Of a DNA stretch of 10,222 nt, positions 1 through 9,324 are shown piece by piece. The stretch is from positions 1 through 10,222 of the forward strand of contig JAKQQP010000290.1 of the NCBI GenBank assembly GCA_029564115.1, read 5' to 3'. Numbering within the stretch: position 1 is the stretch's first letter; each line of letters begins with the position of its first letter. The stretch comes from Candidatus Rifleibacteriota bacterium (GTDB lineage Bacteria > Riflebacteria > Ozemobacteria > Ozemobacterales > Ozemobacteraceae). The position numbers were made by a program, and so were the translations under genes. The notes below the pieces were generated by a model. The model worked only from the letters and a program-made list of their open reading frames with translations, did no database searches and was not told the DNA's origin.

Positions 1-75
1 CTCCTCGGCTGCGAGGTCGTTTACAATTCGATCTAAAAAATTAATCATTGCTTTGTGATTTGCTGCTTCACTCAT
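1..75 (-). CDS. Partial unknown phage protein (N-terminus only)
   Basis: The gene runs off the left edge; only the first 25 residues are visible (MSEAANHKAMINFLDRIVND, then LAAEE). The start ATG (75-73) overlaps the stop of the upstream gene as ATGA, and a GGAGGAG ribosome site lies 8-9 bases upstream, so start and frame are well supported. It is the last visible gene of the leftward operon, and the tight overlap implies translational coupling with the cysteine-rich gene before it. The visible part is helical and hydrophilic with no recognisable motif, so no function can be assigned. Confidence 0.7.
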   Translation of the reverse strand, partial: MSEAANHKAMINFLDRIVNDLAAEE

Positions 76-263
76 TCGATTTTCTCCTCCGATTCTTTTA
101 CCAAATGCCGAAACAGGCCGGAAGTCGGCCAGTCTGACGGCTGTTTCCGCAACATACAAAACCGGGCTGTCGTCGATGCTGAAACTTCGTTGAGTTCGCA
201 ATCTTTGCACTTTGTAGCTTTGCAGTGCTGCGACAAGTGCTTGAGCGCTTCAATCATGGTCAT
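72..263 (-). CDS. Small cysteine-rich protein, 63 aa, unknown function
   Basis: A 63-residue protein with cysteines at 14, 19, 22 and 36 (Cx4Cx2C, then a lone Cys). This spacing could bind one zinc ion, but I recognise no named family. The ATG at 263 has AAAGGA upstream at about 8 bases, and the start overlaps the stop of the preceding gene (CAATGA). The stop overlaps the next start as ATGA. It belongs to a run of small Cys-rich genes downstream of the helicase, which are probably accessory early proteins. Such mini zinc proteins in phage early operons often bind nucleic acid or host proteins; here that is only inference. Confidence 0.72.
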   Translation of the reverse strand: MTMIEALKHLSQHCKATKCKDCELNEVSASTTARFCMLRKQPSDWPTSGLFRHLVKESEEKIE

Positions 264-400
264 TGTTGGTTTCCTTTCAGTCTTTTAATTTTGCGCAGCC
301 TTCGCAGCTGCCGAGCCAAATACTGACGCAGGTCTCGCAGCATCACGTTGCCCGAGTAAGTTAAGAGCGGGTGGTGCTTCGGTATGACAGGCAGCTTCAA
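260..400 (-). CDS. Short highly basic protein, 46 aa, TTG start
   Basis: This short gene fills the gap between the lipoprotein gene and the Cys-rich gene. It starts at TTG (400-398), which overlaps the lipoprotein stop as TTGA. GGAGG lies 6 bases upstream, which decides the start. It ends in TGA (262-260), overlapping the next ATG. The product is 46 residues. Its second half is very rich in Arg and Lys and predicted helical (LARQLRRLRKIKRLK at about 28-42), which suggests nucleic-acid or membrane-surface binding. An internal ATG at residue 20 is possible but has no comparable ribosome site. Overlaps on both sides and a strong SD are the main evidence that it is real. No family recognised. Confidence 0.68.
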   Translation of the reverse strand: MKLPVIPKHHPLLTYSGNVMLRDLRQYLARQLRRLRKIKRLKGNQQ

Positions 401-636
401 AGCCGGCCTCCGTTGATCGTGAAATATTGCAGCAAACTGATCATTTCACCGGAGATGTTCACCTGCACCTGGTCGAGCTGCCGTTTCATTTCCTCAGTCA
501 GCTCGATCTTGGCCGCTGCCAGCTCGTTCTGCATTTCGAGCCGGGTTTCGTCGCCTTCTTTGTCCACGGCAGAGCTGATCGGGTTGCTGCAGCCGGTTAT
601 GGTCGTCAAAAACAGAATTATCAAAAGTTTTTTCAT
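397..636 (-). CDS. Small phage lipoprotein, 79 aa
   Basis: The N-terminus is a clear type II (lipoprotein) signal peptide: two Lys, a hydrophobic stretch (LLIILFLTT) and lipobox ITGC with the modified Cys at residue 16. Residue +2 is Ser, which under Enterobacteria-type Lol rules favours outer-membrane sorting. The mature part (about 64 residues) is charged and helical with coiled-coil character (about 30-62). The ATG at 636 overlaps the previous stop (TGATG), and AAGGAG lies 6 bases upstream. Phage lipoproteins expressed early or from prophages often block superinfection by binding host receptors. That role is possible here but is not shown by sequence. The position inside a replication operon is unusual. 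Confidence 0.8.
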   Translation of the reverse strand: MKKLLIILFLTTITGCSNPISSAVDKEGDETRLEMQNELAAAKIELTEEMKRQLDQVQVNISGEMISLLQYFTINGGRL

Positions 637-992
637 CAGTTACTCCTTGCGAGTTTGGCCAGGCGGGAGTTGAGCAGTTTTACGAGGGTAGTGCGGTTTT
701 GCTTGCTTGTTTCCAACTGCAGCGCCAGGGTGGCAACCTCTATCGACGCTTCTTTAATATTCATCTTTGCTTCATCGACCGATGTATAAACGATTTTCTC
801 TGCGGCACGCTCGAGCGCGGTGCGGTGTTCTTTGCATGTTGTCGAGGCGATGGTGACAAGCTTATCGGCTTTCGGGCCGTTAAAATGCCCGCATGTTGCG
901 CCGCTGCCTCTGTAATACCCGGAGCCGCCCAGGCGAACATAGGCGCATGTTTCGCAGACTCGCTTTTTTGTTGGTGTAGTGCTATTTTCCAT
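636..992 (-). CDS. Cys/His zinc-binding protein with coiled-coil tail, 118 aa
   Basis: The N-terminal half has C13xxC16, C34-G-H36 and C53xxH56, a plausible zinc site or sites. Residues about 57-115 are charged and heptad-like, consistent with a coiled coil and oligomerisation. The ATG at 992 is preceded by GGGAGG at 8 bases and lies within the end of the upstream zinc gene (overlap of 11 bases). The stop overlaps the lipoprotein start. A role as a DNA-, RNA- or protein-binding accessory factor is reasonable but not demonstrable. I do not recognise a named family. Confidence 0.75.
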   Translation of the reverse strand: MENSTTPTKKRVCETCAYVRLGGSGYYRGSGATCGHFNGPKADKLVTIASTTCKEHRTALERAAEKIVYTSVDEAKMNIKEASIEVATLALQLETSKQNRTTLVKLLNSRLAKLARSN

Positions 993-1146
993 GGCTCTTG
1001 CCTCCCTTGGCTTTTTTTGCGATGGGCTCCCACCCGCAACAATGCCAGGACTTCAGAAAATACGCCCGGCGCTTCTCGCAAAATCTGTATGGCTGGCTGC
1101 TCTGGTTTGAATGGCCGCAGTTATGGCAGGCTTGTTTTTTATTCAT
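982..1146 (-). CDS. Zinc-finger-like mini protein, 54 aa
   Basis: A 54-residue protein with C7xxC10 near the N-terminus, C23, and C36C37 near the middle, followed by a Lys-rich tail (KKAKGGKSHGK). The pattern is that of a small zinc ribbon. The start at 1146 is chosen rather than an upstream in-frame start because it overlaps the preceding stop as ATGA and has GGAGG 8 bases upstream; the extra upstream residues would lie inside the MazG-domain gene. The basic tail suggests nucleic-acid binding. Function unknown. Confidence 0.72.
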   Translation of the reverse strand: MNKKQACHNCGHSNQSSQPYRFCEKRRAYFLKSWHCCGWEPIAKKAKGGKSHGK

Positions 1147-1886
1147 GGCTCCAGCCTCCCGTGCAATCTGGCCACTTTTTCGGCGCGGGCGGTGTCGATC
1201 GGGGCGGCACCGAATATCATGCGCATCTGCACGCACATGACTTCAACGTCAGCCAGTTCGCTGATGATTTCTTCGCGACTGCCTTCGGTTGCCATGTGCC
1301 GGTTAATCGCTGCGGCCGCTTCGGCGAATTCTTCGGCGGCTTTTGCCATCTGCCGCAACAGGCCATACTGATTGATCGCGCGGCGACAAACGTCGGCTTC
1401 TTCGATTTCGACAACCGGCTTCGGTGGTGGGCTGGCGTGAATAGTGTTCGCTGCAGGCTCGAAAGCAGCATTAGATTTTTCTTGTGTTACTTTTGGGGCG
1501 GTTTCGTTACATAAGGGTTTTTCTGTCTGTGCGTTTGCTCGGATTTTGCGCATGTGGCAGGCTGAGCAAAAACCGTTTCTTGTCAGTTTTTTGCCGCAAA
1601 CCTCGCACGTCGATTCTGGTTTTTCAATCATTTTTTGCTCCTGGGGTTTCGGTTCGTTCGCCGGTTTTTTGATCGGCTTTTCGGGGATTTGGGCGAGTTT
1701 CTTGCACACGTCGCACAGACCCGGCTGTGTTGCACCTGGCAAAAATCGACCACATTCTTTGCTGGTGCAAAAGTATTCTGTTTCTTCGAGCCACTGCTTT
1801 TTCGATTCGCAGAGCCGGCAAAGCAGGCCGGCCGAAATCGGATAGTCGCAGATCTGGCAGCGCCTTCTGCTTTGTTGCTGATTCAC
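1143..1886 (-). CDS. Zinc-ribbon array fused to MazG-like NTP pyrophosphohydrolase, 247 aa
   Basis: Residues 1-115 hold three four-Cys clusters: C10xxC13/C23xxC26, C40x4C45/C58xxC61 and C94xxC97/C107xxC110. A Pro/Lys/Glu-rich linker (about 115-163) follows. Residues about 168-247 look like an all-alpha NTP pyrophosphohydrolase of the MazG type: a YGLLRQMAKAAEE segment with E185-E186-xx-E189, then E210-LA-D213 in SELADVEVM, the acidic residues expected to bind Mg2+. MazG enzymes hydrolyse NTPs or dNTPs to the monophosphate and pyrophosphate; phage versions are thought to adjust host nucleotide or alarmone pools. The start is GTG (1886-1884) with GAGGAGG 4-5 bases upstream, and it overlaps the previous stop as GTGA. 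The multi-ribbon N-terminus is not part of ordinary MazG and may target the enzyme to DNA, RNA or a protein. Confidence 0.78.
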   Translation of the reverse strand: MNQQQSRRRCQICDYPISAGLLCRLCESKKQWLEETEYFCTSKECGRFLPGATQPGLCDVCKKLAQIPEKPIKKPANEPKPQEQKMIEKPESTCEVCGKKLTRNGFCSACHMRKIRANAQTEKPLCNETAPKVTQEKSNAAFEPAANTIHASPPPKPVVEIEEADVCRRAINQYGLLRQMAKAAEEFAEAAAAINRHMATEGSREEIISELADVEVMCVQMRMIFGAAPIDTARAEKVARLHGRLEP

Positions 1887-2281
1887 GCGACCTCCTCATC
1901 GTTTGGGAGCAGGTCGAAGAGGCTTGAACCAGTGGCAGGTTGGCCAGGGGCCGGGCACTTTGCCGTAGCTGGCAACTCTGATTTCACATGTGACGTTGCC
2001 GCCGCCTGGCGTGTGTTTATGGTGTTCGCAGGATAAACAGGTTCGTCGCATTTTTCCGGCCATAGTTTGTTTTGCTCCTTGTATGCTTTATGACATGCTT
2101 CATTGCCGCAGCTCAGGCAGTCCTGGCGGGTTCGCAACGGCAGCGGGCACTCGTTCAACACAGTTCGCATCGCGGCATTCTGGATGCCGAAAACGATGCT
2201 GTCTTGATCCCATCTGGCTTGAAGTTCGGCCCGATGTCGTGCCGCATAATCGTCAAGCCACGGCTGTTCGTGTGGGCTCAT
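1883..2281 (-). CDS. Cysteine-containing unknown protein, 132 aa
   Basis: The protein begins with a charged helical region (about 1-40) and has a cysteine group C45, C55xxC58, C63 and C78 (core DCLSCGNEACHK), consistent with a zinc-binding loop. The C-terminal 45 residues are Pro/Ala-rich and probably disordered. The start at 2281 has a weak near SD (GAAGA) and a better GAGG about 13 bases away. It overlaps the upstream gene by 29 bases, so expression may depend on translation of that gene. The stop overlaps the MazG-fusion start as GTGA. I do not recognise the family. Confidence 0.68.
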   Translation of the reverse strand: MSPHEQPWLDDYAARHRAELQARWDQDSIVFGIQNAAMRTVLNECPLPLRTRQDCLSCGNEACHKAYKEQNKLWPEKCDEPVYPANTINTRQAAATSHVKSELPATAKCPAPGQPATGSSLFDLLPNDEEVA

Positions 2282-2477
2282 TCTTCAGTGTTTCCTCATA
2301 TTTCTGATAGTTTTTTATCGCCAGATCGCGCCAGTAATCGCGGTCACGTTCGGCATCGTTCAGGCGCTTGCCCAGGCTGATAATCATTTTGCAATCATCA
2401 GTCTTCAGGCCGGTTGCCATGGCCAGCATGTCGACTTCGCTCAGATGTTTTTCTTTGCCGCCTACGATAATTTTCAA
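2253..2477 (-). CDS. Small helical unknown protein, 74 aa, TTG start
   Basis: Encodes 74 residues with a central LKTDDCKMIISLGKRLNDAE region and a helix rich in Arg, Asp, Tyr and Lys (about 40-66). The start is TTG (2477-2475), overlapping the helicase stop as TTGA. A strong AGGAGG lies 7 bases upstream, which fixes this start. Helicase loaders or modulators are sometimes encoded next to DnaB in phages, but this protein has no AAA+ motif and is too short to be a DnaC-type loader. A helicase-associated role is only a guess from position. Confidence 0.7.
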   Translation of the reverse strand: MKIIVGGKEKHLSEVDMLAMATGLKTDDCKMIISLGKRLNDAERDRDYWRDLAIKNYQKYEETLKNEPTRTAVA

Positions 2478-3745
2478 GATGGTTCCTCCTGGGTTGAGAT
2501 TCGGTAAAAGCGCTGGTGATCAGCGTTAAAAATCGCCATCCGGGCGCCGACGCCGGAATCACGGCCTTTTGCCTGGATAACGAAAACTTTTTTGTTTCGG
2601 TCTTCGGTCTTCTGGCCGCTGTCGTGTAAAAACCAGACAATATCGGCATCGTTTTCAATCGCGCCACACTCTCGCAAATCGTGGAGTCGAGGAGCGCGCT
2701 TTTCGCTTTCGCATGCGCGGCTAAGCTGCGAAAGCAAAATAACCGGAACATGCAGCTCTTTGGCCATATTCTTAAAGCCACGGCTTGCAGCTGCGAGAGC
2801 CTGATCACGGGTGTCGCCTTCGCAGGTAATCAGCTGAAGATAGTCAATAATTATCAGCTCCACACCTTCTTCGACCTGTTTTCTTGCGATGCGTCGTATG
2901 CTTTGCAAGGTCTGGTCTGCTTGATCAAAAACCTTTATGCGGCCGGAAATCTGAAGCAACAGACTTGCGGCTTCAAGCAGATCTCTTCTGATTTCCAAGG
3001 GAACCTCAGAGGGTTTTCTTACCGCCAGCTTTGTATTGCGCAGAGACGTAGACGCTAACAATCTTGCAGCAAGCTTTGACTTGCTCATTTCCATCGAAAA
3101 AAAAGCGACTTTGCGACCGCAATCTGCAGCAATTTGCAATGCAAAGGCAGTTTTGCCATTGCTGGGTCTGGCGGCAAGTATGATTAAATCCTCGGGTAGA
3201 ATTCCGCCGCCATTCAGCTCGTCGACAATGTCAAGGCCAGTTACAAACAGATTCTCATTGTCTTCGCAAAGATCGATTCTTCGGATTACCGAAGCCGACG
3301 ACTCGACCAGGTCGCCTGAGTCGCCATTGTCGAGATACTTCGATGCAAGAACGGCTTCGCGTTCGGCGATTTCCCGCGAAAGCTCGACCAGATCTTCATT
3401 TTTAGAACGCTGCTGAACTTCGCGACGCAAAGACTCGATCTGGTCTTTGTAAACCTGCTGCTTAAGCCGGTCGAGATAATGCTGCAAGTTTTTTGAAGTT
3501 GGCACCGCGTTCAAAATGTCCGAAAGCTGGCTGATATCAACTTTTAAGCCGTGATTTGTCGCCCAGGTGCGAACCAGAACCATGTCGATCGGCCGGGCCT
3601 CGATCGCGGCGCAGATAATTGCTTTTGCCGGTGGGTGCAGGAAATCTTCGGGGGCCAGATCCACCGCCGTGATGTTTTCGCCGCTGGCGATAAGAACGCA
3701 GCCGGCAACACAGATTTCAAGTTCAAGTCTCGTTAAATTATTCAT
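2474..3745 (-). CDS. dnaB: Replicative DNA helicase, DnaB family, 423 aa
   Basis: Has the two-part DnaB layout: an N-terminal helical domain (about 5-100), then a RecA-type ATPase (about 165-415). Walker A is AARPSNGKT (191-199, Lys198), the catalytic Glu lies in SMEM (E218), Walker B is IIIDYLQ (Asp301), the sensor-like LLSQLSR is at 337-343, LHDLRECGAIENDADIVWFL is at 354-373, and the basic KGRDSGVGAR segment (393-402) is where the arginine finger lies. The hexamer would unwind the fork 5' to 3' and recruit primase. At 423 residues it is slightly shorter than host DnaB (about 450-470), as is common for phage copies. Its ATG overlaps the initiator stop as ATGA with only a weak SD, implying coupled translation. 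Family call is firm; phage-encoded rather than host dnaB is inferred from context. Confidence 0.95.
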   Translation of the reverse strand: MNNLTRLELEICVAGCVLIASGENITAVDLAPEDFLHPPAKAIICAAIEARPIDMVLVRTWATNHGLKVDISQLSDILNAVPTSKNLQHYLDRLKQQVYKDQIESLRREVQQRSKNEDLVELSREIAEREAVLASKYLDNGDSGDLVESSASVIRRIDLCEDNENLFVTGLDIVDELNGGGILPEDLIILAARPSNGKTAFALQIAADCGRKVAFFSMEMSKSKLAARLLASTSLRNTKLAVRKPSEVPLEIRRDLLEAASLLLQISGRIKVFDQADQTLQSIRRIARKQVEEGVELIIIDYLQLITCEGDTRDQALAAASRGFKNMAKELHVPVILLSQLSRACESEKRAPRLHDLRECGAIENDADIVWFLHDSGQKTEDRNKKVFVIQAKGRDSGVGARMAIFNADHQRFYRISTQEEPS

Positions 3746-4686
3746 GATAAGCTGCCATACTGCCCTTCAAGCTCGGTCACAAGGGCGTCTTCTCCTTTTT
3801 TGGATGTTTCCGATTTGCGCTTAACCGCAATCAGGGAACGAATAACCCAGTCAGCTTTGAAAGAATTGATTTTCGGATTCTCGGAAAGCAGAGTTTTAAG
3901 ATGCTCTGCGGTGCAACCCTGCTCGATTGCGTAAGAAACGTGCATTTTTTCCTGCTCAGTAAGCATCATTGCGCCAATTGCGCTTCTGAATTCTTCCAGT
4001 TGCGCGACCGTGGCAGTGATTTTTCCGCTGATTACAGTTGGGGTCGGGTCTTCGATCTGGCCCGGTGGTGGCAAAAATGCTGAGGCTTCAAAAACGCCTT
4101 TTTTTTTCGATTCGTGGTTTTCGGAATTTTGCGGATTATTATTATATTCTTTATTATTATTTACTTTACTTTTTGCGGAATTACGCCGCTTTGCGGGTAT
4201 ATCTTCGGGTTTCTCCGTTATTCCCCGTAATTCCCCGCAATTCTCCGCATAATCCAACAACCCCGAAGCAAGATATTCTGACCTGATTACGTCTTCAGGT
4301 TTGTAAGCTCTCTTGCTTGTCGCTGTTTTCGCAGCAATGAATCTGGCCTGCATCGACGCACTGGTGAGAATTTTGTGACGGTCATACAGATCTTTGTTGA
4401 ACAATCCGATTTCAAGACAGACGGTTTTAACTTCATTGACAAGGCCCGCAGAGAATCCCGCGCCCAGCAAGTCGGCGATATCCTGTGAGTATTCGGCATC
4501 CCACTCGATGAAGTAACCGTTTTCACGATATGCTTCGCAAAGCAGGCAGATAAATACCAGGGCGCCTTTGCCGCCAAAGCCACCTTTGCCGCCGATCCCG
4601 TTCAACAACCGCCGAATTTTGCGACAGTTGAAAAAGTCGGTGTCAAAGGAAAAATAAGCGAGAGAGTCCTTTAAAGGTCTGGCCAT
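3742..4686 (-). CDS. Phage replication initiator with DUF4373 (Lin1244/Lin1753-like) N-terminus, 314 aa
   Basis: Begins MARPLKDSLAYFSFDTDFFN and continues through LVFICLLCEAYRENGYFIEW, the signature of the Lin1244/Lin1753-like (DUF4373) N-terminal winged-helix domain, about 1-110. A low-complexity Asn/Lys/Ser-rich linker (about 165-200) follows. Its DNA carries the iterons and AT tract described separately. A helical C-terminal domain (about 225-295, TVAQLEEFRSAIGAMM) may contact the helicase, as the C-terminal parts of phage initiators do. The gene lies directly upstream of dnaB with a 4-base overlap, the classic initiator-helicase pair. The ATG at 4686 has only a weak TGAGA site. Role as origin-binding protein is inferred from domain and neighbours. 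Confidence 0.82.
   Translation of the reverse strand: MARPLKDSLAYFSFDTDFFNCRKIRRLLNGIGGKGGFGGKGALVFICLLCEAYRENGYFIEWDAEYSQDIADLLGAGFSAGLVNEVKTVCLEIGLFNKDLYDRHKILTSASMQARFIAAKTATSKRAYKPEDVIRSEYLASGLLDYAENCGELRGITEKPEDIPAKRRNSAKSKVNNNKEYNNNPQNSENHESKKKGVFEASAFLPPPGQIEDPTPTVISGKITATVAQLEEFRSAIGAMMLTEQEKMHVSYAIEQGCTAEHLKTLLSENPKINSFKADWVIRSLIAVKRKSETSKKGEDALVTELEGQYGSLS
4099..4107 (-). other. A9 homopolymer in initiator coding strand
   Basis: Nine consecutive A on the coding strand encode Lys-Lys-Lys in the initiator linker. One extra A would lead to a stop four codons later; one missing A leads to a later stop. It is a possible transcriptional slippage site or a sequencing-error hotspot. The full-length reading frame is open as given. 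Confidence 0.35.
4127..4250. other. ori: Candidate replication origin: iterons plus AT-rich unwinding tract
   Basis: Inside the initiator gene, bases 4211-4250 are four head-to-tail decamers: TTCTCCGTTA, TTCCCCGTAA, TTCCCCGCAA, TTCTCCGCAT (consensus TTCYCCGYWW). A 10-base period does not match the codon period, so the repeat is conserved as DNA rather than as protein. About 40 bases away is a nearly pure AT tract (4136-4170, ATT/TTA repeats) bracketed by two copies of TTTTGCGGA (4127-4135 and 4171-4179). Iterons plus an AT-rich element inside the initiator gene is the arrangement in lambda O and many Gram-positive phages. Function is inferred. Confidence 0.68.
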
Positions 4687-4694
4687 AAGTTATC

Positions 4695-4892
4695 TCAGTT
4701 CTGTTTATTTGATTTCGGACAGCTGACAAGATGTGAAATATTCACAAAAACACAGTGCGTATGCCCGTCAGAGCCCTTTACCGCAGCAAAGGTTTTTGCC
4801 AGGTCGAAAGGGTGCGGCTTGCCGTTTTTCGTTCGTTTCCAGATTATTGTTGCTCCGCAGTGTGAGCAGGTTTGAGGTTTGCTTTCTGACAT
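4695..4892 (-). CDS. Phage zinc-ribbon protein, 65 aa
   Basis: Matches a common small phage protein pattern: C9xxC12-G-ATIIW near the N-terminus, a GKPHPFDL segment (about 24-31), a GHTHCVF segment (His46, Cys47), and HLVSCP near the C-terminus (Cys58). The paired CxxC and the late Cys/His would hold one zinc ion. The gene sits two genes upstream of the helicase. The ATG at 4892 has no clear SD; a strong hairpin (4903-4926) lies just upstream, so its translation may be low or structure-dependent. The exact biochemical role of this family is not known to me. Confidence 0.78.
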   Translation of the reverse strand: MSESKPQTCSHCGATIIWKRTKNGKPHPFDLAKTFAAVKGSDGHTHCVFVNISHLVSCPKSNKQN

Positions 4893-4902
4893 GGGTTAGC
4901 TC

Positions 4903-4933
4903 GGGGGCCGGCTTGCGCCGACCCCCGCTTTTT
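4903..4933 (+). terminator. Strong hairpin with T-run on plus strand, GNRA loop on minus strand
   Basis: A 10-bp stem (GGGGGCCGGC at 4903-4912 with GCCGACCCCC at 4917-4926, one G-U type position) closes a 4-base loop. On the plus strand it is followed by GCTTTTT, a good intrinsic terminator. On the minus strand, the direction of the operon, the loop is GCAA (GNRA) and no T-run follows, so leftward transcripts should pass. It lies between the 4933-5748 gene and the 4695-4892 start. Confidence 0.6.
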
Positions 4934-5748
4934 CAGTAGTTGCGAATGATGAGCAGATTTTCCAGGCTCTTAACCTGTTCGCAGAAGGCGCTGTATTCGT
5001 CTTCGCGAATTTGATCGAGAACCAGATCCATGCCGGGCAGGGTCATTACAAAGAAAATCCGGCCGTTTTCGTCATCAAGCACCGGGGTCAGCTGCAGCGA
5101 GAATTCATAGGAAATGGGAGAACCGCGAACTACCTGGCCCTTGAACGGAATTTCAGACGGGCAAACCGCCTTTTGAGTTGCATTACTTGAGTCAACGCGC
5201 TGTTCCCATTCGAAAGCGCCCCGCTGTTCGCCGTCAGAAAAAATGGGGTCACTTACGAAGGCGACCTTTTTGTTAATTCTGAGCTTTGAAATGGCGTAAT
5301 GCAGATTTTCGTAGCCGGGGATGTACTTTCTGACGGAATCAAGAGCAAAGATCAGGTCTTTGTGGCTCATTGGCTTGCCATTGGCCATCTGAACGATGGT
5401 TTCCCAGAGATGCGTAAACCTTCGGCGGAAAAGCCATTTGTCCTGTTTGAAGCGATCGAGATCATCGATAAAGAATTCCGCGCCATTTTCGCAGAAAATG
5501 ACAGTTCTTCTCAGGCCGGTGGGGTGATTGTCATCAGCCCGACGCTTGTCTTCTTCGAGAACAACCTTGGCGAACGAATCGACGTTGCAAACGGTTCTGA
5601 TAAAGGGCTTTTCGTTTTCGTCCTTCTGGGCCAGGTCGTATCTTTTCTGGGCGTCGTTGTAAATGTAAGAATCAGACCCGATTTTTATCGTTTCTGGGCG
5701 CTTTCTCGTGGGGTCGATCAGTTTTTCAATTATTTCTACGGGGTTCAT
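4933..5748 (-). CDS. Unknown phage protein, 271 aa (possibly DUF2303/YfdQ-like)
   Basis: A 271-residue acidic protein with features such as TVCNVDSFAKVV (about 52-63), RRTVIFCENGAEFFIDD, and a C-terminal LTPVLDDENGRIFFVMTLPG (about 223-242) followed by LVLDQIREDE. The length, the early VDSFAKVV segment and the early-operon setting resemble DUF2303 (E. coli YfdQ-like) prophage proteins, but I hold that assignment only weakly. The ATG at 5748 has AGGAG about 10 bases upstream and lies just after the stop of the 5763-6128 gene. No enzyme motif, signal peptide or membrane segment is visible. Its steady pairing with the preceding gene suggests a shared role in early phage DNA metabolism. Confidence 0.7.
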   Translation of the reverse strand: MNPVEIIEKLIDPTRKRPETIKIGSDSYIYNDAQKRYDLAQKDENEKPFIRTVCNVDSFAKVVLEEDKRRADDNHPTGLRRTVIFCENGAEFFIDDLDRFKQDKWLFRRRFTHLWETIVQMANGKPMSHKDLIFALDSVRKYIPGYENLHYAISKLRINKKVAFVSDPIFSDGEQRGAFEWEQRVDSSNATQKAVCPSEIPFKGQVVRGSPISYEFSLQLTPVLDDENGRIFFVMTLPGMDLVLDQIREDEYSAFCEQVKSLENLLIIRNY

Positions 5749-5762
5749 GTCGAGCCAGCTCC

Positions 5763-6128
5763 TTATGCTGCAGTAGTGCGTTTGAGCGGTGCGGCCACTT
5801 CGCCGTCAGAGTCAAACATCTTGCCCTGGTTACCGTCTTCGAGGGTGATATTGCCTTTAGCGTCGCGATAGAACGCGCGACTGTTCTTGATTTCGAAGTC
5901 GAGCAGAGCGGTTTTGAGGGTTGCTTTGGTTTCGAATCTGCGATCAGATTCGCGCTCAAAGTCGAGTGTGACGGTAAGCTTCGACTTTTTGCCGGTAACC
6001 ATCGTGCGATAGATGGCTTCCTGCATCGCGCTGTGAATCATGTCATCCAGCATGCCGACGCGGCCGTCGTGACAGACTTCCAAGAGGGGCATCATTTCAA
6101 CAAATCCGATTTTTTTGTCATCCTTCAT
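5763..6128 (-). CDS. Unknown phage early protein, 121 aa
   Basis: The protein has a helical N-terminus (EMMPLLEVCHDGRVGMLDDM), then an alternating pattern suggesting beta strands (KSKLTVTLDFE, about 48-58; RFETKATLKT) and a short acidic tail. The ATG at 6128 has AAAGGAG 8 bases upstream and overlaps the end of the previous gene by 11 bases. Fifteen bases separate its stop region from the next start, with a shared AAGGAG at the stop. I do not recognise the family. Its location between the tRNA and the replication genes marks it as an early operon gene. Confidence 0.72.
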   Translation of the reverse strand: MKDDKKIGFVEMMPLLEVCHDGRVGMLDDMIHSAMQEAIYRTMVTGKKSKLTVTLDFERESDRRFETKATLKTALLDFEIKNSRAFYRDAKGNITLEDGNQGKMFDSDGEVAAPLKRTTAA

Positions 6129-6354
6129 TGTTTGTTCTCCTTTCTGCTGCAGCCTGAGAGGGATTGGCCTCGTTCAACCGCGCGGTATATTTGAGCCGGT
6201 AACGTGAATCATTAAAATCACCAACCGGCAGGTAGACATCTATATTATTTGCGTCGTGAGCGGCCAAGATATCGTTCAGCACAACAATTAGAGCGGCTTT
6301 TTCATCAGCGCAGATCTGCTTGATCGTCCTGAATTTGTTGTTCAAAGTGCTCAT
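6118..6354 (-). CDS. Small unknown phage protein, 78 aa
   Basis: Encodes 78 residues: a helical N-terminus (KFRTIKQICADEKAALIVVL) and a central IDVYLPVGDFNDSRYRLKY segment. No motif recognised. The ATG at 6354 has AAAGGAG 5-6 bases upstream, and the ribosome site begins only 6 bases from the tRNA 3' end, so the mRNA 5' end may be made by tRNA processing. Codons near the 3' end (LNEANPS) include the recurring GAGGCCAATCCCTC element. Confidence 0.7.
   Translation of the reverse strand: MSTLNNKFRTIKQICADEKAALIVVLNDILAAHDANNIDVYLPVGDFNDSRYRLKYTARLNEANPSQAAAERRTNNEG
6158..6171 (-). repeat. GGCCAATCCC leader element, copy C
   Basis: On the minus strand GAGGCCAATCCCTC lies 30 bases upstream of the start of the 5763-6128 gene, ahead of its AAAGGAG ribosome site. 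It is identical over 14 bases to copy A (7700-7713) and shares GGCCAATCCC with copy B (8565-8580). All three have the same orientation and a similar position relative to a ribosome site. Confidence 0.55.
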
Positions 6355-6372
6355 AAATGCTCCTTTCAGCGG

Positions 6373-6444
6373 CAGGGGCGGAAGGGTTCGAACCCACGAA
6401 TGTCTGCTCCAAAGGCAGATGCCTTACCACTTGGCTACGCCCCT
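6373..6444 (-). tRNA. tRNA-Gln (anticodon UUG)
   Basis: A 72-base cloverleaf reads on the minus strand. The acceptor AGGGGCG/CGCCCCT has 7 perfect pairs and discriminator G, typical of tRNA-Gln. The D arm is GCC-AAGTGGTAA-GGC; the anticodon stem TCTGC/GCAGA is perfect, with loop CTTTGGA giving UUG at positions 34-36; the T loop is TTCGAAC. CCA is not encoded. The T stem GTGGG/CCTTC has one U-U mismatch and one G-U pair. It lies inside a phage operon with a terminator-like hairpin touching its 5' end and a protein gene 18 bases from its 3' end. Confidence 0.9.
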
Positions 6445-6464
6445 AAAAAAGCCCCGAGAGGGGC
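6445..6464 (-). terminator. Intrinsic terminator abutting the tRNA 5' end
   Basis: On the minus strand GCCCC-TCTC-GGGGC (6464-6451) forms a 5-bp GC stem followed at once by TTTTTT (6450-6445), the base before tRNA position 1. It fits an intrinsic terminator for the 6490-6801 gene. No promoter is evident between it and the tRNA, so the tRNA and downstream operon would need readthrough. The left arm within 6459-6465 repeats the tRNA acceptor 3' strand CGCCCCT. Confidence 0.65.
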
Positions 6465-6489
6465 GAACTGAGAGTTTCGACATCCAAAA

Positions 6490-6801
6490 CTATTGCAGAC
6501 AGGGCTTGTCGATCTTGCTTTGCACCATGCCGACCGCGTAGGGCTCGACCAGTGCCAGACGCTTAAACAATCGCGCCAGGTGATCAGCGGGCGGGTTTTT
6601 GGCAATTTCATCGCTAAGTCGCGAAATCAGAGACAAAATCTGGGTTTCGCGACGTGACACTGCAGCGTCAGAGTTTTTCTGAATCAGCTGCCCGGCTAGA
6701 GAGCCGGCTTCCTGAGCCATCAGCTGCACTCTTCGCAGAGTGTTTTCGCTTCTGATGATCTGGTTTAGTTCTCGCTGTAGTTGCAAAATCTCGCTTGTCA
6801 T
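6490..6801 (-). CDS. Helical unknown phage protein, 103 aa
   Basis: A 103-residue, almost wholly helical protein with heptad-like N-terminal half (EILQLQRELNQIIRSENTLR) and many Arg/Leu/Glu residues, probably a coiled coil. There is no Cys cluster or catalytic motif. The ATG at 6801 has AAGGAAG 6-8 bases upstream. It is followed by the terminator at 6445-6464. I do not recognise the family. Confidence 0.68.
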   Translation of the reverse strand: MTSEILQLQRELNQIIRSENTLRRVQLMAQEAGSLAGQLIQKNSDAAVSRRETQILSLISRLSDEIAKNPPADHLARLFKRLALVEPYAVGMVQSKIDKPCLQ

Positions 6802-6925
6802 ATTTTCTTCCTTGTCTGCTTGAAATGTGTTGGTTAACCACCTGCTGCGGAATGGACTGCAAACCGGCGGATCATTGTAGAAAGGCGAGGGCTTTCGCCC
6901 CTGAAAACCACTGGTAGAGTGGGGT
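6802..6925 (-). other. Intergenic region with paired hairpins
   Basis: This 124-base gap between two leftward genes holds a hairpin at 6884-6899 (GGCGA/TCGCC; alternatively AGGGC/GCCCC with a GAAA loop on the minus strand) followed on the minus strand by TTTCT, and a smaller CCAC/GTGG stem near 6910-6923. It could be a weak terminator or an mRNA processing site. No ORF or promoter of note is visible. Confidence 0.35.
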
Positions 6926-7171
6926 TTAGAGCGAAAAGATTTTTTCCATGGCCTGATCGAGCTTTTGCCGGTCGTAAGTGAGTTTTTTGCAACCGGGAAA
7001 AGCTCTGGGCTGGACGATTGGATCGATAAACTTAATCAGGTAGGTTTCGCCGTAACCGATCAGGGCAGCTGCCTCTGCACGGTTCAGCCAGCGGGCAAAT
7101 TTCAACCGCTGCCAGTTGATTTCCTCTGGTTTGGCACCTTCAGGTTTTGTCGAATTTTCTACTTCAGACAT
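6926..7171 (-). CDS. Small HTH (excisionase/MerR-like) DNA-binding protein, 81 aa
   Basis: The segment from about 25 to 75 (FARWLNRAEAAALIGYGETY, then a short PIVQPRAFPGCKKLTYDRQKLDQAM) has the order of an excisionase or MerR-like winged helix: a W-L-x-R-x-E-A-A-x-L-I-G first helix pair, a turn, a wing with basic residues, and a closing YDRQKLD helix. The first 24 residues are Glu/Lys-rich and flexible. The start at 7171 is chosen because AGGAG lies 6 bases upstream; an earlier in-frame ATG at 7240 would put coding sequence through a GC-rich hairpin. It is the first clear gene of the leftward operon, so it may be an early regulator. No integrase is present in the window, so a true Xis role is unproven. 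Confidence 0.68.
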   Translation of the reverse strand: MSEVENSTKPEGAKPEEINWQRLKFARWLNRAEAAALIGYGETYLIKFIDPIVQPRAFPGCKKLTYDRQKLDQAMEKIFSL

Positions 7172-7180
7172 AAGATTCTC

Positions 7181-7232
7181 CTGAAAAGAGAAAGCCCCCG
7201 CGGCAGCGGTGCGACTCGCCGCCTGGAGGCTT
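7181..7232 (-). terminator. GC-rich hairpin with T-rich tail in 5' leader
   Basis: On the minus strand AAGCCTCC (7232-7225) pairs with GGGGGCTT (7199-7192) over 8 bp with one G-U, enclosing a GC-rich loop with further pairing. TTTCTCTTTTC (7191-7181) follows, overlapping the ribosome-site region of the 6926-7171 gene. It resembles a terminator or attenuator at the head of the leftward operon. Confidence 0.5.
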
Positions 7233-7241
7233 CCCCACAAA

Positions 7242-7261
7242 ACAGATGAAAATCCATCTGT
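7242..7261 (-). repeat. 7-bp hairpin, weak terminator-like
   Basis: ACAGATG at 7242-7248 and CATCTGT at 7255-7261 are perfect inverted arms around 6 bases. On the minus strand TTTTG follows. It sits just upstream of the larger GC hairpin, giving two stacked structures in the leader. Confidence 0.45.
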
Positions 7262-7279
7262 CGTGTGCTAAAGTTAGTT

Positions 7280-7327
7280 AAGAATCCGGTCGCACGATCA
7301 GATTCTTTGCCCCGGTCTTACGATCAG
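7280..7327. repeat. Inverted repeat interlocked with a direct repeat
   Basis: AAGAATC (7280-7286) and GATTCTT (7301-7307) are perfect inverted arms around 14 bases. Overlapping them, CCGGTC-GC-ACGATCAG (7286-7301) recurs as CCGGTC-TT-ACGATCAG (7312-7327), 14 of 16 identical and spaced exactly 26 bases. The layout suggests binding sites for a regulator or recombination protein. Confidence 0.55.
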
Positions 7328-7339
7328 GGCTGTGTTCTG

Positions 7340-7379
7340 GGGTAGTTCCGACAATCTTGGCGGAACGGCGGAACTACCC
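7340..7379. repeat. Perfect 11-bp inverted repeat
   Basis: GGGTAGTTCCG (7340-7350) and CGGAACTACCC (7369-7379) are exact reverse complements around 18 bases. The loop carries an extra CGGAAC (7361-7366), so two right arms compete for the left arm. It lies 50 bases before the start at 7429. There is no convincing T-run, so an operator or RNA switch is as likely as a terminator. Confidence 0.6.
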
Positions 7380-7406
7380 TTTACAAATTCAACCGCCCTT
7401 TGTAAT

Positions 7407-7418
7407 GGGGATTGAAAC
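7407..7418 (+). repeat. GGGGATTGAAAC element, copy 1
   Basis: Plus-strand GGGGATTGAAAC lies directly before the GGAGA ribosome site of the 7429 gene. Related copies are at 7733-7745 and 8121-8131. The sequence equals the 3' end of many CRISPR repeats, but no array is present. Confidence 0.4.
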
Positions 7419-7428
7419 GGAGACAGGC

Positions 7429-7596
7429 ATGAAAAAGGCAGAGATTGTTATACAGGCTACCAAAGAGATTGCGGTAGCGATAATTGCCAATGGCAAGACG
7501 GTGAACCGCGATACCCTACTAGCACTTATCAAAGATACCGCACAGGCTATAGGCGAAGCATACGATAACTGCGAACAAAAGCCCGACGCTCGATAA
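7429..7596 (+). CDS. Small unknown protein, 55 aa
   Basis: The ATG at 7429 has GGAGA 5 bases upstream, which makes it a better start than upstream in-frame starts at 7405 (ATG) or 7357 (TTG). The product is helical (KKAEIVIQATKEIAVAIIAN, then TVNRDTLLALIKDTAQAIGE) with no Cys cluster. It resembles small unannotated proteins near phage repressors, but I cannot name a family. A minus-strand ORF (7519-7671) overlaps it antisense; one of the two may be spurious. Confidence 0.58.
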   Translation: MKKAEIVIQATKEIAVAIIANGKTVNRDTLLALIKDTAQAIGEAYDNCEQKPDAR

Positions 7597-7671
7597 GTGA
7601 AGCTCGTAGCCCTCGGTTTCTTGCTTGCCCGAGAATCCCAGACAGGTCTTTGATATTCTGGCTATTTGCAC
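7519..7671 (-). CDS. Possible 50-aa leader-encoded protein, GTG start
   Basis: Downstream of leftward promoter P_A, an AGGAG site lies 6 bases before a GTG (7671) opening a 50-codon frame. The C-terminal part (SSVGLLFAVIVCFAYSLCGIF) is hydrophobic and could span a membrane. The leader with ribosome site is similar to that of the 8242-8529 ORF, which supports translation. It overlaps the plus-strand 7429-7596 gene antisense, so confidence is low. Confidence 0.35.
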   Translation of the reverse strand: MQIARISKTCLGFSGKQETEGYELHLSSVGLLFAVIVCFAYSLCGIFDKC

Positions 7672-7699
7672 GGCTTTCTCCTGGAGTCGAATGAAGTTT

Positions 7700-7718
7700 G
7701 AGGGATTGGCCTCGGTTT
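7700..7718 (-). repeat. GGCCAATCCC leader element, copy A
   Basis: On the minus strand AAACCGAGGCCAATCCCTC lies in the leader of P_A, about 20 bases before the AGGAG site of the 7519-7671 ORF. It matches copy C over 14 bases and copy B over most of its length. A second CCTCGGTTTC (plus strand) lies at 7611-7620. Confidence 0.6.
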
Positions 7719-7732
7719 CACCCCAACGCTTC

Positions 7733-7745
7733 GGGGATTGAAAAA
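7733..7745 (+). repeat. GGGGATTGAAAAA element, copy 2
   Basis: In the P_A leader, plus-strand CCCC-AACGCTTC-GGGG followed by ATTGAAA forms a short hairpin with flanking TTTCA/TGAAA complement, the shape of a degenerate CRISPR repeat. Only a single copy is present here. Confidence 0.35.
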
Positions 7746-7760
7746 CTCATCGACAGTTTG

Positions 7761-7789
7761 ATTTTATTACTTTAGTCATAAATTGTCAA
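7761..7789 (-). promoter_or_regulatory. Leftward sigma70 promoter P_A
   Basis: On the minus strand the -35 is TTGACA (7789-7784, perfect), the spacer is 17 bases, and the -10 is TAAAAT (7766-7761). Transcription would start near 7754 and run left into the leader and towards the early operon, with no stronger leftward promoter seen before 7171. Dyad operators overlap it, so the divergent HTH regulator at 7814 probably controls it. Confidence 0.72.
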
Positions 7790-7810
7790 TGACTTTTTGC
7801 CGAAAGTAAT
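7766..7810. promoter_or_regulatory. Nested dyad operator before the HTH regulator
   Basis: Two perfect inverted repeats are nested: an outer ATTACTTT (7766-7773) with AAAGTAAT (7803-7810), and an inner AGTCAT (7774-7779) with ATGACT (7789-7794). They cover the -35 and spacer of P_A and end 3 bases before the regulator's ATG, so binding could repress both directions. The same pairing could fold in the regulator's mRNA leader. Confidence 0.62.
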
Positions 7811-7813
7811 TTT

Positions 7814-8128
7814 ATGAAGAACTTTGCTGAAAAACTTAAAGTTTTTATGAAGCTCAAAGGTCTTAATCAGGGCGAGTTGAGCGAGCTTTGTGGTGTCTCT
7901 CAAACTGCTATTCACAAATGGCTAGCCGGAAAGGCCGAGCCGAGTATCAGTAACACCGTTGCCGTGGCCAGGGCTCTCGGTGTAACCGTCGCCGATCTGA
8001 CCGGTGAAGAACCACTGGAACTTTCGGCTGCTGACCGTAAGCTTCTGGCTTTAACCGAAGAAGACAAGCAAATTGCACTTGAATTTCTGGCCTTCTTCAG
8101 AAAACACGCCCCCAAGATCAGGGATTGA
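7814..8128 (+). CDS. HTH_3 (Cro/CI-type) transcriptional regulator, 104 aa
   Basis: Residues about 6-62 are a classic HTH_3/XRE domain: LKVFMKLKGLNQGELSELCG, then VSQTAIHKWLAGKAEPSI with the recognition helix at about 28-38 (SQTAIHKWLAG), then LGVTVADLTG. The C-terminal 40 residues are helical (SAADRKLLALTEEDKQIALE) and could mediate dimerisation. There is no S24 peptidase domain, so it cannot be inactivated by self-cleavage like CI. The SD is weak (GAAAG, inside the operator). It is divergent from P_A and followed 16 bases later by the 8145 gene. It is likely the direct repressor or Cro-like switch for the leftward early operon. Confidence 0.88.
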   Translation: MKNFAEKLKVFMKLKGLNQGELSELCGVSQTAIHKWLAGKAEPSISNTVAVARALGVTVADLTGEEPLELSAADRKLLALTEEDKQIALEFLAFFRKHAPKIRD

Positions 8129-8131
8129 AAC
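8121..8131 (+). repeat. GGGATTGAAAC element, copy 3
   Basis: GGGATTGAAAC spans the regulator's stop codon and ends 2 bases before the AGGAGG of the next gene, the same placement relative to a ribosome site as copy 1. Upstream CCCCC could pair with GGG. Confidence 0.35.
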
Positions 8132-8144
8132 ACAGGAGGATTCA

Positions 8145-8354
8145 GTGACCAAGACCCATAACTACCCGACAATCAAGGTCGGCCTTCTTAAGGAAGAGCT
8201 TGCCAGATATCCTGATGATTACGATCTGGACTTCTGCGGACTCACTTATGATCATCTGGAAGAATATGACGGGGAGAGCCTTCAGATGTCCTTTGCCGAG
8301 GTGATTTATCGCACTCAAGAAGGAGTTTTGGTGGTTCAAGATTCTGACTTATAG
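8145..8354 (+). CDS. Small acidic unknown protein, 69 aa, GTG start
   Basis: The GTG at 8145 with AGGAGG 5 bases upstream is chosen over an in-frame ATG at 8073, which lies inside the regulator gene and has no SD. The product is acidic (LARYPDDYDLDFCGLTYDHL, then EEYDGESLQMSFAEVIYRTQ) with probable beta strands and no known motif. It is co-transcribed with the HTH regulator and could modulate it. Its last third is overlapped antisense by the 8242-8529 ORF. Confidence 0.7.
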   Translation: MTKTHNYPTIKVGLLKEELARYPDDYDLDFCGLTYDHLEEYDGESLQMSFAEVIYRTQEGVLVVQDSDL

Positions 8355-8529
8355 CGGCAAGAGCGACGGCAGCAGCAGAATGATACAAAGGACGATACGA
8401 TATCAGGGCCCGGCCGTCTTCTCGAACTCTATGAATATGCACTCCTTCCGGCGATACCTTAACTGTCCAATAAGTAGTTTCCATGTCTTCAAGTCGAGTT
8501 AATACCGGATGTTTGCTGGAGATATTCAA
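8242..8529 (-). CDS. Unknown protein downstream of P_B, 95 aa, probable TTG start
   Basis: AGGAGG (8544-8539) lies 9 bases before an in-frame TTG at 8529; an internal ATG at 8484 (METTYWTVKVSPEGVHIHRV) has a weaker site. Promoter P_B lies about 70 bases upstream, with a leader homologous to that of P_A. The central region (TYWTVKVSPEGVHIHRVRED, then ALISYRPLYHSAAAVALAAI) looks like a small folded domain. The C-terminal third overlaps the plus-strand 8145-8354 gene antisense and may be non-conserved. No family recognised. Confidence 0.45.
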   Translation of the reverse strand: MNISSKHPVLTRLEDMETTYWTVKVSPEGVHIHRVREDGRALISYRPLYHSAAAVALAAISQNLEPPKLLLECDKSPRQRTSEGSPRHILPDDHK

Positions 8530-8564
8530 AGAGTGTCGCCTCCTGGTGTCGAGTTGAAAAATCT

Positions 8565-8584
8565 TGGGGATTGGCCTTCGGTTT
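8565..8584 (-). repeat. GGCCAATCCC leader element, copy B
   Basis: On the minus strand AAACCGAAGGCCAATCCCC lies in the P_B leader, 20-25 bases before AGGAGG. It matches copy A with one inserted base, and the shared region continues to CAACTCGAC(A)CCAGGAG against CATTCGACTCCAGGAG. Confidence 0.6.
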
Positions 8585-8605
8585 TTCTCAACTCCTGACG
8601 ATTTG

Positions 8606-8634
8606 ATTGTAGAAAAAAATTCAACAAAAGTCAA
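8606..8634 (-). promoter_or_regulatory. Leftward sigma70 promoter P_B
   Basis: On the minus strand the -35 is TTGACT (8634-8629), the spacer is 17 bases and the -10 is TACAAT (8611-8606). It is divergent from the S24 repressor at 8668 and overlapped by a dyad operator. Transcripts would read the 8242-8529 ORF and continue antisense to the HTH regulator operon. Confidence 0.7.
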
Positions 8635-8644
8635 TCGTGTTGAA
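8620..8644. promoter_or_regulatory. Dyad operator over P_B
   Basis: TTCAACA (8620-8626) and TGTTGAA (8638-8644) are perfect inverted arms around 11 bases, total 25 bases, covering the -35 and much of the spacer of P_B. The CI-like protein encoded 24 bases away is the likely ligand. The sequence differs from the operator at P_A, implying separate specificities. Confidence 0.6.
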
Positions 8645-8667
8645 AAATACACTGCAATCGAGGTTTT

Positions 8668-9285
8668 ATGAAGTTTAAAGATCGTTTAAACCGCATTTTA
8701 AGCGGTAAAAAAAGTTTGGAAAAAATTTCACAGGCTGAAATAGCCCGTCAACTGGGCGTTGACAGGTCTACTGTTTCTGCCTGGAAATTAGGAAAAGCCG
8801 AGCCGAGCCTCGACATGATTCATCGGCTGGCGGAAGTGCTCGCCATTTCCCCCGCTGAGCTGCTTGGTGGAAAAGCGCCGCAATTTGTAGACATGAGCAA
8901 ATGGGTGACGCTGCCGATTATTGGCAAAGTCCCTGCAGGAGTCGCACTTGAAGCTATAGAAGAATACGAGGGAGAGATAATCGTGCCGCCAGAAGATGCC
9001 AAGCCTGGCTATTTTGCGTTGAAAGTTCAGGGTGAATCGATGCACCCAAGGGTTTTAAGCGGGGATGTCGTTGTAGTGGCCCCAAACCTTGAGCCTTATA
9101 ACGGCCAGGTTGTAGTCACACGAATAAACGGGGAAGGCGAAGTGACGTTAAAGGAATTTCAGCGGGACGGGGAAACAATCTTGCTGGTTCCTGAGAACAA
9201 GGCCTTCCAGACAAAGGTTTTTCGACCTGGCTCAGAGCTGAAGATCGTCGGTGTCGTTGTAAGCCTGCAAAGGCGTAAAGTGTAG
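8668..9285 (+). CDS. CI/LexA-like phage repressor with S24 self-cleavage domain, 205 aa
   Basis: The N-terminal HTH_3 domain (about 5-67) has a recognition region QLGVDRSTVSAWKLGKAEPS (28-47). The C-terminal S24 peptidase domain (about 80-200) keeps the full self-cleavage apparatus: scissile Ala90-Gly91 in VPAGVAL, nucleophile Ser124 in GESMHP, and general-base Lys162 in VTLKEF. RecA-stimulated cleavage after DNA damage would lift repression, so this is the likely lysogeny repressor. The ATG at 8668 has GAGG 4 bases upstream. It faces away from P_B, whose operator lies in the shared intergenic region. The length is close to LexA and short CI proteins; phage context and the paired HTH gene favour CI over host LexA. 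Confidence 0.92.
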   Translation: MKFKDRLNRILSGKKSLEKISQAEIARQLGVDRSTVSAWKLGKAEPSLDMIHRLAEVLAISPAELLGGKAPQFVDMSKWVTLPIIGKVPAGVALEAIEEYEGEIIVPPEDAKPGYFALKVQGESMHPRVLSGDVVVVAPNLEPYNGQVVVTRINGEGEVTLKEFQRDGETILLVPENKAFQTKVFRPGSELKIVGVVVSLQRRKV

Positions 9286-9324
9286 TTTCAGGCGTGAACC
9301 GGCATTGCAAAAAGTGGTTTTAAA

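Follow-up and report, generated by a model that had tools for sequence, protein, structure and literature searches.

Few phages, HK022 with its put RNA among them, are known to carry RNA elements that on their own let RNA polymerase run past terminators. In phage lambda, the same RNA signal (nutL and nutR, acting with the N protein) is repeated at more than one early promoter, with boxA ahead of a small boxB hairpin. Immunity in phage P22 is bipartite, the immC and immI regions lying far apart and the second controlling an antirepressor. In HK022, putL and putR are described (PMC9378689) as RNA elements of ~70 nt that resemble each other in sequence, each following an early promoter, and that suppress termination in early transcription. 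According to the same account, put RNA forms two stem-loops, with which it binds the beta' zinc-binding domain; putL comes immediately after its promoter and is base-paired from nucleotide 3 onwards. Here we analyse a leader that occurs twice in a stretch of temperate phage DNA of 10,222 nt (contig JAKQQP010000290.1, assembly GCA_029564115.1, Candidatus Rifleibacteriota bacterium). The whole of this stretch is called the window.

The two leader copies follow two leftward promoters, P_L2 next to a helix-turn-helix (HTH) regulator of XRE type and P_L1 next to a CI-like repressor with an S24 peptidase domain (the S24 repressor), and both face the same leftward operon (Table 1). We tentatively propose that both early promoters start their transcripts with the same cis-acting hairpin, which would modify elongation so that polymerase passes terminators and feeds this one operon. 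With start sites taken from the promoter consensus, the place of the leader would suit an element that heads the early transcripts of two promoters, and in place, length and repetition it resembles put as described in that account. Instead of two side-by-side stem-loops, however, its minimum free energy (MFE) fold is one long stem enclosing one or two apical hairpins, and both copies lie on leftward promoters, unlike putL and putR. Membership of the put family was rejected for want of a convincing sequence match and because the predicted fold is different. The repetition of one RNA signal at several early promoters is also a likeness to lambda nut. The best boxA-like matches were 6–8/10, at different places in the three leaders compared and 65–300 nt from +1, and a boxA/nut reading was dropped; no N-like protein was recognised among the scanned neighbours. 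Like P22, the window has two regulators, one presumably cleavable and one not, but their regions are adjacent and face the same operon.

The shared leader and its two promoters

P_L1 and P_L2, both pointed out in the first-pass annotation, are the sole sites in the window, on either strand, that score at least 10/12 (shuffle means 0.46 on the minus and 0.44 on the plus strand), and each regulator gene is divergent from the strong promoter that it adjoins. In a scan that takes in one promoter type, other types being outside it, no other minus-strand promoter-like site was found downstream of them even at 9/12, either in the window or in its closest fetched relative, L077. The latter comes from a 37.9-kb virus contig (the source of L116 too); its S24 repressor is 75% and its replication protein 95% identical to that of the window. 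Its order is S24 repressor, promoter, leader, hairpins A–D, operon, and the record contains one leader copy.

The leader motif that had been claimed for both places is indeed there. The pattern GGGATTGGCCTNCGGTTT, with up to three mismatches allowed, matches the window at 7702 (three mismatches, one base missing) and at 8567 (none) and nowhere else, and two such matches occurred in 0/200 shuffles. Furthermore, CTCCTGG-N-GTCGA is found at 7678-7690 and 8540-8552.

The first-pass annotation had taken the two control regions for paralogous modules that arose by duplication of a switch. The alignment of 7660-7815 with 8520-8670 is far above chance, scoring 38 when the best of 2000 shuffles reached only 29, but the similarity is confined to the transcribed leader. 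Whereas the part left of the motif was equalled in only 5/2000 shuffles, the promoter stretch was equalled in 255/2000 and the regulator-proximal side (score 19) in 179/2000, so that the promoter and operator side is at chance. The dyad operators proposed over both promoters are present, but neither exceeds chance: a dyad as good as the best one was obtained in 58/200 shuffles of 7745-7814, 73/200 of 8590-8667 and 74/200 of the L077 region 4923-5000. The L077 dyad (4952-4978) occupies the equivalent place to the S24 dyad of the window and has an identical 11-base spacer, with half-sites TTTCTATG/CGTAGAAA versus TTCAACA/TGTTGAA. In a visual comparison of 8-base arms, two positions are altered on both sides, one has gained symmetry and one has lost it. 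A dyad with the same spacer and different half-sites, together with a different recognition helix in the repressor, would favour this candidate as a real S24 operator.

The regulators themselves are not each other's closest relatives. In a ranking over the open reading frames (ORFs) of the fetched loci plus proteins, where some contigs are counted more than once, the window S24 repressor is hit 39 of 49 for the HTH regulator (36.6 bits), ranks 1–10 being the regulator itself and its own family. Other Riflebacteria XRE ORFs are nearer (50.8 and 47.4 bits, with an HTH match only, and 50.1 bits, a distant S24-type repressor), as is the best relative from the family of the window S24 repressor, P0012 (44.3 bits). 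Conversely, the HTH part of the S24 repressor gives 62.4 and 59.7 bits to Riflebacteria XRE ORFs versus 37.4 bits to the HTH regulator. Two regulators that both diverge from strong promoters, only one of them with an S24 match, would suit a duplicated and since diverged switch, in which a cleavable and a non-cleavable repressor each hold one promoter in a two-lock lysogeny. With promoters and operators that align at chance, dyads not above chance and regulators with nearer relatives elsewhere, we consider this improbable, and the duplication of a whole switch finds no support. The evidence against duplication does not count against two locks as such, and the two regulators may yet form a two-lock switch.

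L077 has no HTH cassette at that place; its contig ends shortly past the repressor, and no separate search for the HTH protein covered the remainder. In the window, an additional ~1.1 kb separates leader copy 2 from hairpin A and holds the HTH cassette, the second promoter and leader copy 1. Gain or loss of a cassette beside a pre-existing leader would thus fit at least as well as switch duplication; from two phages, gain in the window and loss in L077 cannot be told apart.

Table 1. Positions of the promoters, leaders, genes and other features in the window.
Feature	Positions	Strand	Basis
Promoter P_L2, TTGACA-17-TAAAAT	7761..7789	-	Promoter scan, consensus score
Promoter P_L1, TTGACT-17-TACAAT	8606..8634	-	Promoter scan; L077 equivalent TTGACT-17-TATACT
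Candidate operator dyad AGTCAT-9-ATGACT over P_L2 -35	7774..7794	.	Present; dyads of the region not above chance
Candidate S24 operator dyad TTCAACA-11-TGTTGAA over P_L1 -35	8620..8644	.	Present; L077 counterpart
Leader copy 1, predicted 5'-terminal hairpin, 69 nt from presumed +1	7686..7754	-	Fold from +1; shared motif
CCAGGAG of copy 1, one base past hairpin	7678..7684	-	Sequence
Leader copy 2, predicted 5'-terminal hairpin, 52 nt from presumed +1, apical GG[CCAAUC]CC	8548..8599	-	Fold; similar to L077:4880-4932 minus
CCAGGAG of copy 2, one base past hairpin	8540..8546	-	Sequence
Conserved leader hairpin A	7341..7378	-	1 compensatory pair vs L077
Conserved leader hairpin B	7280..7307	-	No varying pair
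Conserved leader hairpin C	7236..7267	-	3 compensatory pairs vs L077
Conserved leader hairpin D	7189..7235	-	2 compensatory pairs vs L077
First gene of leftward operon, 81 aa	6926..7171	-	ORF and coding score; 82-aa ORF at equivalent place in L077
Intrinsic terminator GCCCC-UCUC-GGGGC-U6 inside leftward operon	6445..6464	-	Identical in L077
tRNA-Gln (UUG)	6371..6444	-	Directly behind terminator, within early operon of both phages
Replication genes further downstream (DnaB-like helicase and replication initiation protein)	2474..4686	-	Family match
55-aa ORF, no assigned function	7429..7596	+	Coding score positive; best family matches merely E 0.036-0.057
XRE/HTH regulator, 104 aa, no peptidase match	7814..8128	+	PF01381 E 2e-12; 8 further homologues, 69-85% identity
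69-aa ORF, phrog_21180, function unknown	8145..8354	+	E 4.7e-8; coding score positive
CI-like repressor, 205 aa, HTH and S24 peptidase	8668..9285	+	PF00717 E 1.4e-28; phrog_4 E 3.6e-38

Predicted structure of the leader

In all three leaders the trinucleotide GUC starts 7 bases past the -10 element (copy 1, 7754; copy 2, 8599; L077, 4932), which, judged by the promoter consensus, is a fitting place for +1. When the first 75 nt are folded, the first base is predicted to pair with +69 in copy 1, +52 in copy 2 and +53 in L077, giving a common architecture, and the prediction places GG[CCAAUC or CCAAAU]CC in an apical hairpin of each. The predicted fold of copy 1 consists of a P1 stem GUC...GAC, one extra hairpin and the apical GAGG[CCAAUC]CCUC. 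Folds of this length were as stable in 23/500 shuffles of copy 1, 40/500 of copy 2 and 7/500 of L077.

The similarity among the leaders is mosaic. Copies 1 and 2 are alike in the 3' half only (0/1000 shuffles as good; 272/1000 for the 5' half), and copy 2 resembles L077 above all in the 5' half (0/1000, and 2/1000 for the 3' half), yet both arms pair within each copy, as judged by eye on the three folds. Mainly because the arms pair in each leader despite this divergence, we read the leader as an RNA structure. A model derived from the copy 2 and L077 leaders, with copy 1 left out, was run on 112,646 bases. It placed copy 1 (7686-7727, 17.3 bits, E 0.055) after copy 2, L077 and the duplicate record L116, and its next match was at E 0.68. 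Curated Rfam covariance models found only the tRNA in the window at E <= 1.

A number of results weigh against the proposed hairpin and its role. The comparison comprises three leaders from two phages, and copy 1 is barely similar to L077 (40/1000 shuffles as good) and carries the extra hairpin. At 90 nt, energies as low were reached in 95/500, 61/500 and 15/500 shuffles of copy 1, copy 2 and L077, respectively. In the same order, an equally large 5'-terminal domain was seen in 4/500, 96/500 and 56/500 shuffles at 75 nt and in 38/500, 131/500 and 94/500 at 90 nt, and a separate fold test gave z values of -1.67, -2.20, -1.34 and -0.48 for four stretches. Hence, the predicted fold is not proven by any single leader. 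Between copy 2 and L077 there is no compensatory pair in P1, and 3/32 cells are unpaired. The model match on copy 1 is weak, with 8 non-standard marks (4 pairs), and it covers the motif and the 3' arm without the 5' arm, which gives no support for a stem from +1. The model had no hit at E <= 10 in HK022 27000-36000, and when each leader was aligned with two stretches of HK022, CI-Nun and CI-to-CII, taken whole instead of at exact put coordinates, the result was at chance in 5/6 cases; the sixth (copy 1, putR side) was equalled in 12/500 shuffles. Finally, there is hardly any enrichment of terminator-like sites in general (17 in the window against 14.7 expected; 14 in L077 against 9.0, sd 2.7).

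The mosaic also bears on a reading in which the shared block is a recombination seam for swaps of immunity cassettes, with no RNA function, the window having gained its HTH cassette between the leader copies. Such a seam would suit the missing cassette in L077, a copy 2 whose 5' half is L077-like and whose 3' half is copy 1-like, repressors with varying recognition helices and a conserved remainder, and the modest fold statistics. We hold it to be unlikely, since arm pairing that is kept after the arms have diverged, and a spacing to the -10 that recurs in all three leaders, are unexpected for a mere seam.

Alternatively, a 5'-terminal stem-loop could shield the early mRNAs from 5'-dependent decay, or tune the translation of a short leader peptide via CCAGGAG. 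The predicted stem at the presumed +1 in 3/3 leaders and the CCAGGAG one base later in both window copies point this way. A decay shield, however, would not need a conserved apical sequence; as for a leader peptide, the ORFs behind CCAGGAG score as non-coding and the L077 leader keeps the hairpin without CCAGGAG. On balance this alternative seems somewhat unlikely.

The CGAC-xx-CAGGAG block, annotated earlier as a ribosome-site region, is present at both places; its reading as a ribosome site is not convincing. As ribosome site plus gene it was rejected, with minus-strand ORFs 7519-7671 and 8242-8529 having coding scores below zero. The latter had no match at E <= 0.001 in a large protein search (3 candidates), in which 7519-7671 was not included, and no alignment was obtained that would indicate paralogous leader peptides.

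Further copies of the leader were looked for in several ways. The motif core occurs in 76 stretches of viral_contigs, which we take as chance: CCAGG lies within 50 bases behind it in 4, and none looked leader-like by eye, with no folds computed. A 5' arm pattern search returned L077's own contig only. In 39 Riflebacteria genomes the model gave 30 hits in 17 genomes, the best at E 0.014 per genome, which is the chance level for 39. Its best E was 0.68 in 12 further loci (L078, L079, L081-L083, L088-L091, L097, L100, L117), and 15 distant viral loci yielded one hit (E 0.47). The leftward hairpin leader had a match in one of the 39 genomes, of only 22 bases. No leader was seen on reading the stretches with S24 repressor relatives L079, L097 and L100 or, for L082 and L088, short parts upstream. 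The 39 loci L077-L115 gave nothing in an approximate motif scan, which missed the diverged leader of L077 too and so overlooks diverged copies. No published description of the element was seen in searches of open-licence papers.

The operon behind the leaders

Left of copy 1 the window aligns with L077, and four hairpins, A–D, are common to both phages. All 56 of their predicted pairs hold in both, six with changes on both sides; slid controls gave 0–1 such pairs, and column shuffles reached six in 14/500. The stem of hairpin C holds a U run, and hairpin D is followed by a U-rich tail just ahead of the start of the first gene, which looks terminator-like by eye, its loop exceeding the size allowed in the terminator scan. 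Four conserved hairpins in this place, two of them with such U-rich features, could mean that the leaders lower early expression, as attenuators or as targets of an RNA-binding regulator of the phage. No RNA-binding protein was recognised among the scanned neighbours, and we regard this as very improbable.

The operon includes the DnaB-like helicase, the replication initiation protein and tRNA-Gln. In both phages its intrinsic terminator sits between a 103-aa ORF and the tRNA, with the replication genes behind. Any such terminator appeared in 1/1000 minus-strand shuffles of window 1-7754 and 2/1000 of L077 1-4932. Because this terminator is inside the operon and no other good leftward promoter was found, transcripts from P_L1 and P_L2 would be expected to run into a strong terminator ahead of the replication genes. 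Abutting the 5' end of the tRNA, it could also serve a separate role there.

In the antitermination mechanism that we propose, the hairpin stem would begin at +1 and carry GG[CCAAUC]CC at its tip, as the predicted folds and start sites suggest. The nascent hairpin would act on the elongating RNA polymerase, by itself or together with a factor from the phage or the host, and the modified polymerase would read through the hairpins ahead of the first gene and then through the perfect terminator before the tRNA and the replication genes. P_L1, presumably under the S24 repressor, and P_L2, presumably under the HTH regulator, would feed one operon with one copy of the element each, the P_L1 transcript being read across the HTH cassette as well.

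A broader claim, which we think rather unlikely, is that phages of Riflebacteria possess a new class of promoter-proximal antitermination RNA with no recognisable kinship to put or nut, placed at two promoters under two repressors, so that opening either lock would launch a terminator-crossing polymerase. If true, it would explain how two promoters under two regulators are able to share one terminator-guarded operon, and a second, put-unrelated element in a poorly known phylum would suggest that the trick arose more than once.

Regulators and neighbouring genes

The rightward block of the window consists of the 55-aa ORF, the 104-aa HTH regulator, the 69-aa ORF, the S24 repressor and an ORF6N protein. 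The S24 repressor matches PF01381 as well as PF00717, a CI/LexA-like architecture. In an alignment of 15 rows Ala90-Gly91 is invariant, and Ser124 and Lys162 are nearly so; from LexA, we take the former to be the cleavage site and the latter the Ser-Lys dyad. The suggestion that only one of the regulators is self-cleavable agrees with these domains, as the HTH protein has no peptidase match. Neither passes an NCBIfam cut-off, the best models being RstR for the HTH regulator (47.8/80 bits) and LexA for the S24 repressor (82.6/110.95).

The S24 repressor has 12 homologues of 205-206 aa with 74-90% identity, among them P0010, L077's own. In genome_contigs, 2/130 candidate stretches were confirmed as carrying its relatives. 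Because both of these loci are Riflebacteria, the phage host is probably a member of this phylum, of which 37/39 genomes have some S24 repressor match, many to a single domain only. No DNA match of window 7400-9300 to phage records was found at E <= 1e-5.

Among the relatives, the recognition helix (alignment residues ~31-46) is highly variable and the S24 part nearly constant, a pattern that would be expected of immunity types. P0015 and P0017 have different HTH parts followed, past the cleavage-site region, by the same tyrosine-recombinase C-terminus, as if recombination acted within the repressor gene. The recombinase part has merely a weak match elsewhere in the L077 record (35% over 51 residues). 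P0013, on a 40,660-base contig, is a 117-aa version of the window S24 repressor, identical at first, then with a frame change and an early end; the window's own HTH protein is recorded on a contig of equal length.

Between hairpin A and the 55-aa ORF, a dyad TTACAAA-11-TTTGTAA at 7381-7405 was noted by eye, with no control. The sequence GGGGATTGAAAC occurs three times in the window with at most one mismatch (7407, 7733 and 8120, plus strand), and three copies were seen in 0/200 shuffles. Two of them lie immediately ahead of the starts of the 55-aa and 69-aa ORFs.

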